From: Polaribacter glomeratus
GTDB taxonomy: Bacteria > Bacteroidota > Bacteroidia > Flavobacteriales > Flavobacteriaceae
Direction of reading: 5' to 3'
DNA: 64,000 bases
Assembly (NCBI RefSeq): GCF_002954665.1
Contig: NZ_MSCM01000001.1
Coordinates: 1,376,836 to 1,440,835 of the forward strand
This document shows positions 54,213 through 60,349 of the stretch, piece by piece. The notes under the pieces are model-generated. The model searched no databases, was not told the DNA's origin, and saw only the letters and a program-made list of their open reading frames with translations. Every line of letters begins with the position of its first letter. The stretch's first letter is position 1. Made by a program: the position numbers and the translations under genes.

Positions 54213-56747
54213 TCAACTAATATTAGACCAAATCTTAGAAGTTTTAGACACTTCTAAATAGGTTTTTCTAATATTTGCATTTTCTGGTTTTGATAAATTA
54301 GAATCCTCTTGTAATACTGAAATTGCCGTATTTCTGGCATTCACTAAAATTTTAGTATCCTTTACAATATCAGCAATTTTAAGATTTAAGACACCACTTT
54401 GTTGCGTTCCCATTAAGTTTCCTGGTCCACGTAATTTTAAATCAACCTCAGCAATTTTAAATCCGTCGGAAGTTTCAACCATGGTTTTTAAACGTGTTTT
54501 ACCTTCTTCGGATAATTTATAACTCGACAATAAAATACAATAACTTTGATCTGCACCTCTACCAACTCTACCTCTTAATTGATGTAATTGACTTAAACCA
54601 AATCGTTCTGAACTTTCAATAATCATAACACTCGCATTTGGCACATTTACACCAACTTCAATAACCGTTGTTGCTACCATAATTTGAGTTTCGCCTTTTA
54701 CAAAACGCTGCATTTCAAATTCTTTATCCGCAGGTTTCATTTGTCCATGAACAATACTTATTTGATATTTTGGGTTTGGAAATTCGCGCGAAACACTTTC
54801 ATAACCATCCATTAAATCTTTATAATCCATCGTTTCAGATTCCTGAATCAATGGATACACAATATATACTTGTCTACCTTTTGCTATTTCATCCTTCATA
54901 AATTTAAAAACCGACAATCGATTGCTATCAAATCGATGCACCGTTTTTACTTCTTTTCTTCCAGGAGGCAATTCATCAATAACAGAAATATCTAAATCGC
55001 CATACACAGACATTGCCAACGTTCTAGGAATTGGCGTTGCCGTCATTACTAAAATATGTGGCGGAGACGTAACTTCAGCTTTTTTAAAGGGAATATTTTT
55101 TAATTCTTGCGCAAGTTTTTCGATTACATTGTCTATATTTTCGAGAACTTCTTCGCTTGTAAATCTGATAACTTTATACCCAAATTCTTCAAGAATTTTA
55201 ATTCTTATCGCGTCTGCTTCTTGCTGTTCTGCGGTACTGTCATATTCTACATCAATTTCAACTAGTAACGGTTTTGAAATACAAGCAAAATCAACCGTAA
55301 ATTCGTCAATAATATGCTGTCGTCTAAATTTAAATTCTAATTTATTTGTTTTTAATTGCTCCCAAAGATTTTTTTCTGCTTCTGCGGATTGTTTTTTTCT
55401 TTCTTTTTGCAATTCTTTCATCAACTTATATACTGATGGATGCGCAGTTTCGTAACGATTGCGTACTTCAATTCCCGTTCCTTTGGCAATGGTTAAAACG
55501 GATCCTCCACCTTTAGACCATAATTTAGATCTTTGTGCAACTCCAAAGCGATGTTGCTCATCAATAATTGCAACACCTAAATTTTGGAATTGTACTTTAT
55601 CTTCTAGCAAAGCGTGTGTGCCAATTAAAATATGTAACGTTCCGTTTTCTAAATTTTTATGAATTTCTCTTCGTTTTTTTATTTTTACAGAACCTGTTAA
55701 TACATCTACTTTTAGCTTCGTGTTTTTTAAATATTCAGAAATTGCTTTATAATGTTGTGATGCTAAGATTTCTGTAGGCGCCATTATGGTGGCTTGAAAG
55801 CCATTATCAATTGCTAAAAGCATGGTTAATAAGGCCACAATTGTTTTTCCTGAGCCAACATCACCTTGCAAAAGGCGGTTCATATGCGCACCAGAACCTA
55901 CATCTTTTCTTATTTCTTTAAGTACTCTTTTTTGAGCATTTGTTAAATCGAAAGGCAAATGATTGTTATAAAAATCATTAAAATTATCGCTTACATTTTC
56001 AAAGATAAATCCTTTTATTTTGGTTTTGTTGATGAGTTTTTTACGCAATAATTGCAACTGAATAAAAAATAATTCTTCAAACTTTAAACGGTATTCTGCT
56101 TTGGCTAAATTTTCTTGACTTTTAGGAAAGTGCACATTTAAAAAAGCATCTCTTTTATGCATCAACTTAAAATCATCAATAATTTCTTGTGATAAACTTT
56201 CTTGAATTCCGTCGAAAAACTGTTTTAGTAAATTCTGAATGTACGTTCGCATCAATTTATTAGAAACGCCAGAATTCGTTAATTTTTCTGTGGATGGATA
56301 TACAGGTTGCATCTTAGATTGCAGCTTTTGTTTATATTCTGTAACCAATTCTATTTCTGGATGCGGAATGCTAAAGCTACCATTATAATGATTCAGTTTT
56401 CCATAAACTACATACGATTCATTTGGCTTCAAGGATTCTTTAATCCATTTATGGCCTTTAAACCAGACCAATTCCATGGTTCCTGTAGCATCTTGAAAAG
56501 TTGCCACTAACCTACTGCCTCTTTTTTGTGCAACAGATTTAATACTCGTTATTTTACCAACAATTTGTACTTCGGATGTGTTTGGCTGTAACTCTTTTAT
56601 GGCGTAAAAAGCGGTTTTATCAATATATCGAAAAGGGAAAAAATTGAGCAAATCATTACAAGATTTAATGCCCAATTCTGTGTACAAAAGCGTTGCTCTT
56701 TGTACACTAATTCCGTTTATATATGTTATAGGATAACTTAAATTCAA
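54213..56747 (-). CDS. recG: ATP-dependent DNA helicase RecG with inserted DUF559-like domain
   Basis: 844 residues from the TTG at 56747, which gives MNLSYPITYINGIS as in family N-termini; an upstream TTG at 56777 would add ten hydrophobic residues. Wedge/OB domain (about 50-150), Walker A LLQGDVGSGKTIVALL (~295), motif Ia MAPTEILASQH, motif II IIDEQHRFGVAQRSKLW (DEQH 396-399), motif III VMTATPIPRTLAMS (TATP 569-572), motif V MVATTVIEVGVNVP, motif VI QLHQLRGRVGRG. RecG remodels stalled forks and D-loops. Motifs II and III are normally about 25 residues apart; here an extra ~148 residues lie between them, bringing the length from ~700 to 844. The helicase motifs themselves are intact. Single gene, divergent from the rRNA methylase. 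Confidence 0.95.
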   Translation of the reverse strand: MNLSYPITYINGISVQRATLLYTELGIKSCNDLLNFFPFRYIDKTAFYAIKELQPNTSEVQIVGKITSIKSVAQKRGSRLVATFQDATGTMELVWFKGHKWIKESLKPNESYVVYGKLNHYNGSFSIPHPEIELVTEYKQKLQSKMQPVYPSTEKLTNSGVSNKLMRTYIQNLLKQFFDGIQESLSQEIIDDFKLMHKRDAFLNVHFPKSQENLAKAEYRLKFEELFFIQLQLLRKKLINKTKIKGFIFENVSDNFNDFYNNHLPFDLTNAQKRVLKEIRKDVGSGAHMNRLLQGDVGSGKTIVALLTMLLAIDNGFQATIMAPTEILASQHYKAISEYLKNTKLKVDVLTGSVKIKKRREIHKNLENGTLHILIGTHALLEDKVQFQNLGVAIIDEQHRFGVAQRSKLWSKGGGSVLTIAKGTGIEVRNRYETAHPSVYKLMKELQKERKKQSAEAEKNLWEQLKTNKLEFKFRRQHIIDEFTVDFACISKPLLVEIDVEYDSTAEQQEADAIRIKILEEFGYKVIRFTSEEVLENIDNVIEKLAQELKNIPFKKAEVTSPPHILVMTATPIPRTLAMSVYGDLDISVIDELPPGRKEVKTVHRFDSNRLSVFKFMKDEIAKGRQVYIVYPLIQESETMDYKDLMDGYESVSREFPNPKYQISIVHGQMKPADKEFEMQRFVKGETQIMVATTVIEVGVNVPNASVMIIESSERFGLSQLHQLRGRVGRGADQSYCILLSSYKLSEEGKTRLKTMVETSDGFKIAEVDLKLRGPGNLMGTQQSGVLNLKIADIVKDTKILVNARNTAISVLQEDSNLSKPENANIRKTYLEVSKTSKIWSNIS
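55074..55517 (-). other. DUF559 (Vsr-like endonuclease) domain inserted in frame in recG
   Basis: Residues ~411-558 of RecG. After a glycine-rich linker (WSKGGGSVLTIAKGTG) comes SAEAEKNLWEQLKTNKLEFK, then FRRQHIIDEFTVDFACISKP, LLVEIDVEYD, ILEEFGYKVIRFTSEEVLEN, which is the DUF559/PD-(D/E)XK Vsr-like pattern. Asp in VDF and Glu in VEID are kept, but the usual VDGxxH reads IDVEYD, so Gly and His of the site are changed and activity may be lost. RecG sequence resumes at TSPPHILVMTATP. Confidence 0.85.
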
Positions 56748-56795
56748 TTTAAAAAGATATAAAAAACGAAAATACAAAATACCTTTTATTTAACG

Positions 56796-58114: not shown

Positions 58115-60349
58115 ATGATAAAAAAACTACTATTTTTAATTGCAATAACTACTTGCACATTTACTTTTTCACAAGCAGAATCTTATTATAGTGATGTAAA
58201 CCTGAACTTAACAGGTGCAGATTTAAAAAACGCTTTAGCTACTAAAATTATTACAACACATACAAAGTTGTTAACGTATACTCCTGGCGTTTGGGAAGCA
58301 TCTAAAATAACGGATGCTAACGTATCAAATACGTCAGAAGTTGTTTTAATTTATGGTTGGGAAGATGGTACTGATCAAGACATTACAAACGACAGAACTA
58401 GAAATAACACTTTACAAGATAGTGGAAATGGTGAATCTTTTAGATGGAATAGAGAACATGTTTTTTCTAAATCTTTAGCTATACCTAGTTTAGAAACGAA
58501 TGACCCAGGGTCTGGAACTGATGCTCATAATTTAAGACCTGCTGATAGAAGTAGAAACTCTGAAAGAAATAATTTTAAATTCGCGCCTGGCACTGGTAAT
58601 TCCGGTCGTTCTTCCGTTACCTATAATGGTCCAGATGGTCCAAATACAAGAGGTTGGTATCCTGGAGATGAATGGAAAGGAGATGTAGCAAGGATTATAA
58701 TGTATATGTATTTACACTATAATGGAGATGGAACTTCCGTTAGTAAAACACAATGTACACCTAACAATGTTGGTGTTGGTAGCAGTGAATTTACATCTGA
58801 TGAGATGATTGATTTATTTTTACAATGGAATGCAGAAGACCCAGTTTCAGCTATTGAAATAGCGAGAAATACCTACCATGAAAACACCTCTAACACCTAT
58901 GCCCAAGGAAATAGAAATCCGTTTATAGACAATCCATATTTAGCAACGAGAATTTGGGGAGGAACCTCTGCAGAAGATAGATGGGGAATTTACACAACTA
59001 GCGATACTGAAGCTCCTACGAGTCCAACTAACGTAACATTAACTAACATAGGTTTAACTTCAATGGATGTTTCTTGGGATACTTCTAGCGATAATTTTGG
59101 TGTAACTGGCTATAACGTTTATGTTAATGATGTTTTAACAGCACAAACTTCGAATACAAATACAACAATTTCTAATCTTAATACAAACACAACCTACAGG
59201 TTTACTGTAATCGCTAAAGATCTTATAAACAATTTTTCTGCTGCAAGTACTGCTGTAAATGCAAAAACGTTACAGGATACTACGCCACCATCGGTACCGT
59301 TAAATGTAACTATATCGACTATTACAGATAGTTCGTTTAACATAAATTGGTCTGCTTCTTCAGACAATAACGAAGTTGCAGGTTACGATGTTTTTGTTGA
59401 TGGCCTTTTAGTAGCTTCTACTACATCAACTTCTTATACGGTAATAGGTCTAACTTCATCTACAACTTTTACTGCGGCTGTTTTAGCAAAAGATAAAGAT
59501 GATAACAAATCTGCAAAAAGCAGCAATGTAAGCGTTACAACCAATGGTTCGACAGCTGGAGCTGCTTCAGAATTATTTTTCTCTGAATATGTTGAAGGTA
59601 ATGGCGGTACAAATAAAGCATTAGAAATTTATAATTTAACAGGCGCTACAGTAAGTCTTGTTGGTTACGTGGTAAAATTAGAAAGGAATGGTGCAGGAGT
59701 TTGGACTACACCACTAGCATTAAACAGCGGAACTGTTAAAAACATTGTACCTGGTGATGTATTTGTAATTGGTAATGGAGATAATTCAGATCCTATATTA
59801 CAACCTTATTCAAATAATAATACGGTTGGGCAGGTAGATTTAGTTCAACCTAATATTGAGGCCACTAGTTATGGTCAACCTGTAAATTTTAATGGAGACG
59901 ATGCCGTTGGTTTGTTTAAAGACGACGTATTAATTGATATTATTGGTGTTTTTGGTAACGGAGCAGTTTTTGCTGCAAACGTAACATTAAGACGAAACGG
60001 AAATATTAGTAGCCCAAATACTACTTTTGATAAACAAGGTGAATGGACTTCTTTTTCTGAAAACACTTTTGATGGCATTGGTAGCCATACATCCACTTTA
60101 AGTACAAAAAATAATGCTTTTGAAGCTTTTAAAATGTTTCCGAATCCTACAAATGGAGATCAAATTTATTTTAGTGTTACAGAAGATGCTACTATTCAAA
60201 TCTACACGGTATTAGGAAAATTAGTACAAACATCTAAGGTTACAAAAAGTAAGAACAGTGTTGATATTTCAAAATTCGCAACTGGTATGTATCTTTTAAA
60301 AATAAACTCTGGTAAGCAATTTATTACCAAAAAATTAATTAAAAATTAA
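58115..60349 (+). CDS. Secreted endonuclease I with fibronectin III, lamin-tail-like and T9SS domains, copy 1
   Basis: 744 residues. Signal peptide to about CTFTFSQ. Endonuclease I family domain (about 20-290): RWNREHVFSKSLAIPS with catalytic His, GTDAHNLRPADRSRNSERNN, FKFAPG, WYPGDEWKGDVARIIMYMYL. Two fibronectin type III domains (PTSPTNVTLTNIGLTSMDVS; PSVPLNVTISTITDSSFNIN), then a lamin-tail-like domain (LFFSEYVEGNGGTNKALEIY, LRRNGNISSPNTTF) and a T9SS type A tail (FKMFPNPTNGDQIYFSV to the end). Predicted extracellular or surface DNase for using DNA as phosphorus and carbon source. A hairpin terminator follows. Confidence 0.92.
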   Translation: MIKKLLFLIAITTCTFTFSQAESYYSDVNLNLTGADLKNALATKIITTHTKLLTYTPGVWEASKITDANVSNTSEVVLIYGWEDGTDQDITNDRTRNNTLQDSGNGESFRWNREHVFSKSLAIPSLETNDPGSGTDAHNLRPADRSRNSERNNFKFAPGTGNSGRSSVTYNGPDGPNTRGWYPGDEWKGDVARIIMYMYLHYNGDGTSVSKTQCTPNNVGVGSSEFTSDEMIDLFLQWNAEDPVSAIEIARNTYHENTSNTYAQGNRNPFIDNPYLATRIWGGTSAEDRWGIYTTSDTEAPTSPTNVTLTNIGLTSMDVSWDTSSDNFGVTGYNVYVNDVLTAQTSNTNTTISNLNTNTTYRFTVIAKDLINNFSAASTAVNAKTLQDTTPPSVPLNVTISTITDSSFNINWSASSDNNEVAGYDVFVDGLLVASTTSTSYTVIGLTSSTTFTAAVLAKDKDDNKSAKSSNVSVTTNGSTAGAASELFFSEYVEGNGGTNKALEIYNLTGATVSLVGYVVKLERNGAGVWTTPLALNSGTVKNIVPGDVFVIGNGDNSDPILQPYSNNNTVGQVDLVQPNIEATSYGQPVNFNGDDAVGLFKDDVLIDIIGVFGNGAVFAANVTLRRNGNISSPNTTFDKQGEWTSFSENTFDGIGSHTSTLSTKNNAFEAFKMFPNPTNGDQIYFSVTEDATIQIYTVLGKLVQTSKVTKSKNSVDISKFATGMYLLKINSGKQFITKKLIKN

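Follow-up and report, generated by a model that had tools for sequence, protein, structure and literature searches.

An in-frame DUF559 nuclease insert in RecG of Polaribacter glomeratus, a probable decayed copy of a mobile element that resides in conserved genes of Bacteroidia

INTRODUCTION

The recG gene within the 64,000-nucleotide stretch of Polaribacter glomeratus DNA analysed here (the window) encodes an otherwise normal helicase that is interrupted, between two of its core motifs, by a domain resembling a nuclease. How such a domain came to lie inside a conserved repair helicase, and whether it serves that helicase, is the question that this locus raises. The first-pass annotation, made from the sequence alone, offered two answers: a selfish coding element that a surface loop tolerates, comparable to a non-splicing intein, or the gain of a fork-cleaving function. 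The common view is that a homing element within a conserved gene depends either on splicing or, as in the WHO elements of yeasts, on a separate gene next to a duplicated end. We compared the insert with congeneric RecGs, with other host genes in the class Bacteroidia, to which the source genome (4.06 Mb) belongs, and with known nucleases and mobile elements.

RESULTS

A DUF559 domain interrupts the helicase core of RecG

A Pfam scan of the window RecG found the wedge, DEAD, Helicase_C and RecG C-terminal domains all present, and matched PF04480 (DUF559) with an E-value of 3.6e-26 and 91.6 bits against a gathering cut-off of 20.6. The position of this domain between helicase motif II (DEQH) and motif III (TATP), as first annotated, was thus borne out, and neither intein nor Hint families were detected in the protein at E-values up to 1. 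Comparison with uninterrupted congeneric RecGs showed that the insert is flanked by LWSK and PPHILVMTATP (Table 1), the site reading [LM]WxKNxLPPH or a near variant in 27 uninterrupted proteins. The earlier coordinates, 55074-55517, lie within 9 bases of these comparison-based bounds; the glycine-rich entry and the exit just before PPH both hold, as do the retention of the PD-(D/E)XK Asp and Glu (D496 and E507) and the alteration of the VDGxxH motif, the usual ExDG..H being E-x-D-V..D in the window copy. Because the domain scores far above the Pfam cut-off and recurs at this one position in 17 of the 54 congeneric RecGs, as well as in RecGs of other genera, a chance match is excluded. The solved RecGs 1gm5 and 9wm0 align on both sides of the insert and have only a few residues at the site, suggesting that the insert entered a naturally variable connection. 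A structure model of the whole RecG (pTM 0.31) was too poor to place the DUF559 domain on the helicase and was left unused.

Table 1. Features of the interrupted recG gene, in positions of the window
Feature	Position	Strand	Remarks
recG host gene	54213..56777	minus	single frame including the insert; 854 codons, putative TTG start
In-frame insert, probable copy of a mobile element	55065..55511	minus	149 codons, residues 423-571; bounds from uninterrupted congeneric RecGs
DUF559 (PF04480) nuclease domain	55101..55409	minus	residues 457-559
Decayed 5' end of insert	55473..55511	minus	palindromic repeat, about AGCCCACCCCAACCCTCCCAAAGGGAGG in fresher RecG copies
Decayed 3' end of insert	55065..55097	minus	about GCCTCCCCTTTGGGGAGGTTGGAGGGGCT in fresher RecG copies
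Catalytic Asp, kept (D496, in VDF)	55290..55292	minus	invariant column in alignments
Second catalytic motif	55239..55259	minus	E-x-D-G-x-x-H in the family; here E507-I-D509-V-E-Y-D, Gly and His lost
Helicase motif II (DEQH) of host RecG	55551..55562	minus	from translation
Helicase motif III (TAT) of host RecG	55035..55043	minus	from translation

The insert has a Vsr-like predicted fold and a decayed catalytic motif

An AlphaFold2 model built from 81 aligned inserts gave a usable core (pLDDT 78.5, pTM 0.68). The best solved Foldseek matches of this model were 3hrl (E 3.6e-6) and the homing endonuclease I-Bth0305I (3r3p; E 3.5e-4), which aligned with it over 93 residues at 1.8 A (Z 14.0) and 95 residues at 2.4 A (Z 12.0), respectively, and Vsr (1cw0; Z 9.4, 101 residues, 2.7 A) came next among the named families. 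A profile-sequence search agreed with the fold (3hrl, E 1.5e-24; 3r3p, E 1.6e-5). The modelled DUF559 insert matches the Vsr/I-Bth0305I nuclease fold and resembles nucleases of the PD-(D/E)XK superfamily, as the first-pass annotation had supposed.

In a comparison of 84 RecG inserts, which leaves out L220, the cut-short RecGs L195 and L238 and eight duplicate genomes, the ExDG motif was kept in 75, broken in seven and unparsed in two. The Gly and His of ExDG..H are lost both in the window copy and in that of Polaribacter filamentus (L193), its nearest named match, with 87% identity across the insert. Five of the seven inserts with a broken motif were without end-repeat signal and two (L218 and L255) had it, and the association gave a rank test p of 0.003 over rows that are not independent. 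Between the window and P. filamentus, dN and dS were 0.055 and 0.280 in the insert, and 0.021 and 0.014 (dN) and 0.269 and 0.306 (dS) in the two RecG host parts, suggesting that the window insert is still constrained by purifying selection, less so than the helicase. The domain is taken as one that must fold but need not cut, and the window copy is probably a fossil, no longer a nuclease or mobile, yet constrained.

The insert is present, scarred or absent among congeneric RecGs

RecG was detected in 57 of the 58 genomes of the genus (G031 had no match), and 54 of these proteins were scored at the site, G007, G030 and G039 not having been fetched. The insert was present in 17, a short extra peptide, or scar, in 10, and 27 were uninterrupted. 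Since 37 of the 54 congeneric RecGs are free of the insert, it is not a fixture of RecG in all Flavobacteriaceae, the case that had been set against a mobile element when the locus was first annotated. The scar of G006 retains the 3' repeat and that of G028 the apparent outermost bases of both element ends; in the remaining scars little is recognisable beyond a few end-like bases. Such short extra peptides could have arisen through in-frame deletions of the element. At least 12 changes of insertion state are required on the tree of host RecGs, 59 rows of which five are from other genera picked for carrying the insert, and eight of the changes are forced by strongly supported branches.

No recent horizontal transfer was found within RecG or LeuS, the leucyl-tRNA synthetase described below. 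The RecG insert conflicted with the host tree by a dlnL of 287, and six partly overlapping host control segments gave 155-230; because these controls were rejected too, the tree conflict was dropped as a sign of horizontal spread. The divergence of RecG inserts at fourfold sites, which was below that of the host in 130 of 187 pairs overall, may be compositional and was likewise dropped as a sign of transfer. In LeuS, fourfold-site divergence of the inserts, newer ones included, was not below that of the host. Near the RecG site there was no signal of co-conversion, with a permutation p of 0.24 or more in all eight bins. The flanks of insertion sites were modestly above average in conservation (75th, 71st and 77th percentiles, with MetH from 5 rows). 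The RecG and LeuS copies thus look old, since no signal of transfer or co-conversion was found there, and the RecG insert may have been largely inherited vertically.

The same domain lies in many unrelated genes

A search of the source genome for the domain in other conserved genes, a check proposed in the first-pass annotation, found one further DUF559 domain, inside the only LeuS. In all 20 searched genomes whose LeuS carries the insert, LeuS is single-copy. The fused protein must therefore work, unless it is processed, and we infer from single-copy LeuS that interrupted hosts are functional.

A search of the genus gave 57 DUF559 matches at E < 1e-16, a count that omits four weaker rows; 54 lie in frames of at least 598 aa and three in short frames. 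Among the long frames, 35 were identified as 17 RecG, 14 LeuS, two MetH and two HsdR, and the other 19 are of 598-1132 aa and mostly of LeuS length. PF04480 was found in 143 of 299 genomes in a search of the family, and matches to the profile of the insert (E of 1e-20 or less) in 134 of 395 genomes in a search of the class. Hosts confirmed by models at one locus or more comprise RecG, MutS, TsaD, RecJ, MetH, LeuS, IleS and ValS, together with HsdR (two sites), HisD (C-terminal), HemD (N-terminal), a SpoIIE phosphatase and an M23 peptidase domain protein; acetyl-CoA-synthetase-like, TsaB-like and RluD-like hosts were recognised from reading translations, without model confirmation. The family and class searches also yielded further insertion sites in RecG, LeuS and MetH. 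The best 80 named loci comprise 73 RecG, four IleS and three ValS, with ValS model-checked in L261 only. The DUF559 insert, on this comparison of sequences, is not a RecG-specific domain. In the wider family, short, free-standing frames are the majority among the matches listed, and a location inside another gene is therefore not universal. Collections of phages and plasmids contained one phage and 33 plasmid records with DUF559, at less than 60% identity, with nothing specific among the matches listed.

Translated palindromic repeats bound the fresher copies

Inverted repeats, each with a short hairpin, flank the coding unit of the fresher copies. The two MetH copies of L105 end in AGCCCCCCxxCCCCCAAAGGGGGAGC and its near complement, and the ends of fresher RecG copies are given in Table 1. 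The repeats are translated into peptides such as SPPQPSQREG and SLPSGEVGGA, and the palindromes are read in frame in the host genes of relatives, though not in the eroded window copy. An inverted repeat above the best of 30 flank shuffles was present in 28 of 79 elements, free-standing genes among them; none beyond own-flank shuffles was present in the other 51, and the signal was lacking in 45 of 75 RecG inserts with an intact motif. In the window copy, no terminal inverted-repeat signal is left (z -0.4).

Palindromes also occur without the nuclease. One strict form was found as a solo copy six times in 630 kb from 80 loci, against none in one shuffle; all six lie in LeuS, and 13 more palindromes in these loci lie near DUF559. 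Palindromes of other types occupy the same loops as the element. Within the 64-kb window, no solo repeats of two types were found. When the best-preserved RecG junctions were compared by eye with empty alleles, no duplicated target of at least 3 bp was apparent; the other loops are too variable for such a comparison.

Copies in paralogous genes point to mobility

A tree of 79 DUF559 domains labelled by host required 13 changes of host, against a least possible number of eight and a shuffled mean of 49.8, and none of 200 shuffles reached as few as 13; three labels of "free" in this tree, kept as run, are really LeuS (L067), MetH (L109) and HemD (L124). This clustering by host indicates that lineages keep to their hosts but have switched among them. 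At site 1 of LeuS there are at least two lineages, perhaps more, one old and degenerate and one newer. The two copies in MetH of L105 are sisters at two sites, with 345 of 418 nt identical.

The genome G361, represented by one assembly of 70 contigs and 91% completeness, gave 47 SpoIIE matches, some of which are pieces of one gene. Two of its SpoIIE paralogues, L311 and L312, carry elements that are identical at 387 of 405 nt (95.6%), at the homologous place before DCTGHGVPGA; the upstream flank of L312 is unseen, as its contig starts inside the element. Beyond the first 20 codons after the elements, which code for a conserved motif, the host domains share 20-63% nt identity per 10 codons. There was no signal of co-conversion in the 15 codons after the elements, 17% of comparable paralogue pairs being as alike. 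Twenty further SpoIIE paralogues were fetched from this genome and 18 were readable at the site, nine of them with a plain 25-residue spacing. Three (L327, L328 and L335) carry miniatures that have both repeats and no nuclease, the ends in L335 being nearly identical to those of L311; four (L324, L331, L332 and L340) have palindrome-bearing peptides, and two more have other extra residues. Genomes from two other families (L296 and L319) likewise have this SpoIIE site occupied. The paralogue pair of G361 is the strongest evidence of mobility and indicates one recent copying to a homologous site, and from such comparisons we infer that the element is mobile.

DISCUSSION

The occurrence of one unit in many unrelated hosts, its inverted-repeat ends, the empty alleles, the footprints and the paralogue copy favour the earlier suggestion of a selfish coding element, like an intein without splicing. 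The insert in the window RecG is, in our judgement, probably the decayed remnant of a mobile nuclease element, present in many genomes of the class Bacteroidia, that inserts in frame, does not splice and has a homing-like preference for sites. We propose the following scenario. The intact element is, as the comparisons show, a stop-free frame that codes for a DUF559 nuclease and is bounded by translated, palindromic terminal inverted repeats; it would enter loops of conserved proteins in frame and stay there, unspliced, as an extra domain. The nuclease may cut an uninterrupted copy of the target, with the break repaired from the element-bearing copy, and the terminal repeats may have a part in the less frequent moves to new sites. 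The repeats and the catalytic residues would later decay, after which the domain would persist as a folded passenger or be lost through in-frame deletion that leaves a scar peptide. We would place the window copy at a late stage of this decay. The absence of splicing is presumed, given the missing Hint domain and the persistence of decayed copies in frame, and cleavage and choice of target are likewise presumed.

The element may instead move as transposons do, a reading that we regard as possible but clearly less probable. The repeats would then be recognised by the nuclease or another enzyme in a cut- or copy-and-paste reaction, in-frame survivors would remain in tolerant loops, and the recurrence of sites would reflect survivorship and vertical descent, not homing. 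Terminal inverted repeats on in-gene and free-standing copies alike, several sites per host gene (three in MetH and two each in LeuS, RecG and HsdR), two-repeat miniatures without nuclease, two copies within one MetH gene and the many free-standing copies of the wider family would all suit such movement. However, the lineages cluster by host, the same site recurs across families and no duplicated target of at least 3 bp was seen at the best-preserved RecG junctions. Furthermore, if insertion were random and harmful events were purged, copies between genes would be expected more often than they were found in the genus, where 54 of the 57 strong matches lie in long genes.

It is improbable that RecG has long had the insert as one of its ordinary domains, passed on vertically, often lost and perhaps fork-cleaving or fork-binding. 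Its recurrence at one RecG site across genera, the purifying selection between the window and P. filamentus copies and the lack of a transfer signal in RecG are in line with such a history, but the domain is missing from most congeneric RecGs, its state changes repeatedly on the host tree, partly along strongly supported branches, the catalytic Gly and His are lost in the window copy, and the same unit resides in many proteins unrelated to DNA. The gain of a fork-cleaving function, the second suggestion of the first-pass annotation, is disfavoured because the element also lies in LeuS, MetH, TsaD and similar genes and because the window copy has lost catalytic residues.

We give similarly little credence to the nuclease as a passenger, whereby REP-like palindromes moved by another enzyme at times trap a DUF559 gene between two of their copies. 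Solo palindromes do occur in frame, and other palindrome types share the same loops; however, in the 80 loci the solo copies were confined to LeuS, with further palindromes near DUF559, and the intact ExDG motif in 75 of 82 parsed RecG inserts would be unexpected for a passenger. The element might also spread among alleles and paralogues by ordinary homologous recombination or gene conversion alone, the nuclease playing no part. Scarless empty RecG alleles within insert-bearing clades suggest such allele exchange, but this is an equally doubtful explanation, as it cannot create new sites in unrelated genes and the alike tract in G361 ends within about 20 codons of the element, amid strongly diverged flanks.

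The mobile in-frame nuclease element proposed here shares features with several known systems. I-Bth0305I (3r3p), whose PDB name is "mobile intron protein", has the same fold and weak sequence similarity, and its coding element, too, sits within a conserved gene; its carrier, however, is an RNA element that splices out, whereas the DUF559 insert lies in the frame of the host itself and has no known removal. An account of the EDxHD or Vsr-type homing endonuclease family, to which this enzyme belongs, describes extra DNA-binding regions (PMC3943268). Inteins with homing endonucleases also lie in frame in conserved proteins at recurrent sites, but the window RecG has no Hint or intein domain and the ends of the fresher elements code for palindromic-repeat peptides. 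The WHO elements of yeasts, as described in PMC7282813, also home into a conserved gene without splicing, but each WHO gene has its own transcription and takes the place of the 3' end of FBA1. The Rickettsia palindromic elements and REP-like repeats place palindromic DNA in frame, where it is kept in the protein, according to PMC3733652. Unlike these, two palindromes bound a nuclease frame here, with nuclease-less miniatures beside it. The Rickettsia palindromic elements are not known to encode a nuclease. Free-standing DUF559 or Vsr-like proteins such as Caulobacter VsrA and 3hrl belong to the same domain family but are separate genes, not inserts. VsrA, a Vsr-like DUF559 protein, was reported to cause the SOS response seen in a methylase mutant (PMC12907096). 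No description of DUF559 inserts in such an arrangement was found in titles and abstract openings, a search with subscription papers and preprints mostly outside its range.

Whether these inserts represent a new structural class is, in our estimate, evenly poised. Such a class would be an autonomous homing nuclease element in conserved, even essential, genes that uses neither RNA nor protein splicing and stays as a tolerated domain, with translated palindromic repeats serving both as DNA ends and as protein linkers, nuclease-less miniatures alongside, and proteins remodelled across the class Bacteroidia. An element that stays in the mature protein would, if this is true, be a different solution for homing in conserved genes. 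It would also account for synthetases and repair enzymes with a fused "endonuclease domain", which annotation may read as functional architectures, and would provide natural examples of where conserved proteins tolerate a domain of about 150 residues. RecG is one gene that shows the cycle of gain, decay, footprint and loss, open to direct study.

Results and discussion

At site 1 of LeuS, an older DUF559 lineage without the catalytic ExDG motif, which is replaced by EFSGKED or a similar sequence, was found in the genome containing the window (locus L003) and in congeners (loci L058, L060, and L062–L068). This lineage is still in frame genus-wide, and a fresher insert occupies the site in some species alongside those carrying the older one. 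In addition to the DUF559 insert, LeuS of L003 has two repeat-like peptides, NPVLSNVEGQ close to the N-terminus and NVIASETKQS past the insert, which look like palindromic repeats of other types in translation.

Features of the Polaribacter glomeratus genome
Feature	Sequence	Coordinates
LeuS, also carrying a DUF559 insert	L003	4561-8031
Large secreted endonuclease-like protein (by-eye reading only)	Window	58115-60349

By eye only, the secreted protein was read as having repeated fibronectin-like segments and a sorting-type tail at the C-terminus, with recG and an RsmB-like methyltransferase gene in its neighbourhood.

In other genera, nine fetched hemD loci (L123–L131; host identity by model check for L123 only) have an in-frame DUF559 fusion upstream of a uroporphyrinogen-III-synthase-like protein, and in several of them DUF559 is flanked on both sides by palindromic sequence. 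Genome G130 has two free-standing DUF559 genes of 144 amino acids each (L141), both on the minus strand and about 1.4 kb apart, with identical translations.

Loops that hold DUF559 elements also hold other repeat peptides. Four SpoIIE genes of the Bacteroidia genome G361 (L324, L331, L332, and L340) carry in-frame palindrome-bearing peptides in the loop of the DUF559 elements, and the repeats in them differ somewhat in type. The MetH loop occupied by the second element copy in L105 has other repeat-like peptides in L040 and L134 (HFERSREV; CCFERCQEVS). This MetH loop thus behaves as if it were a general landing place.
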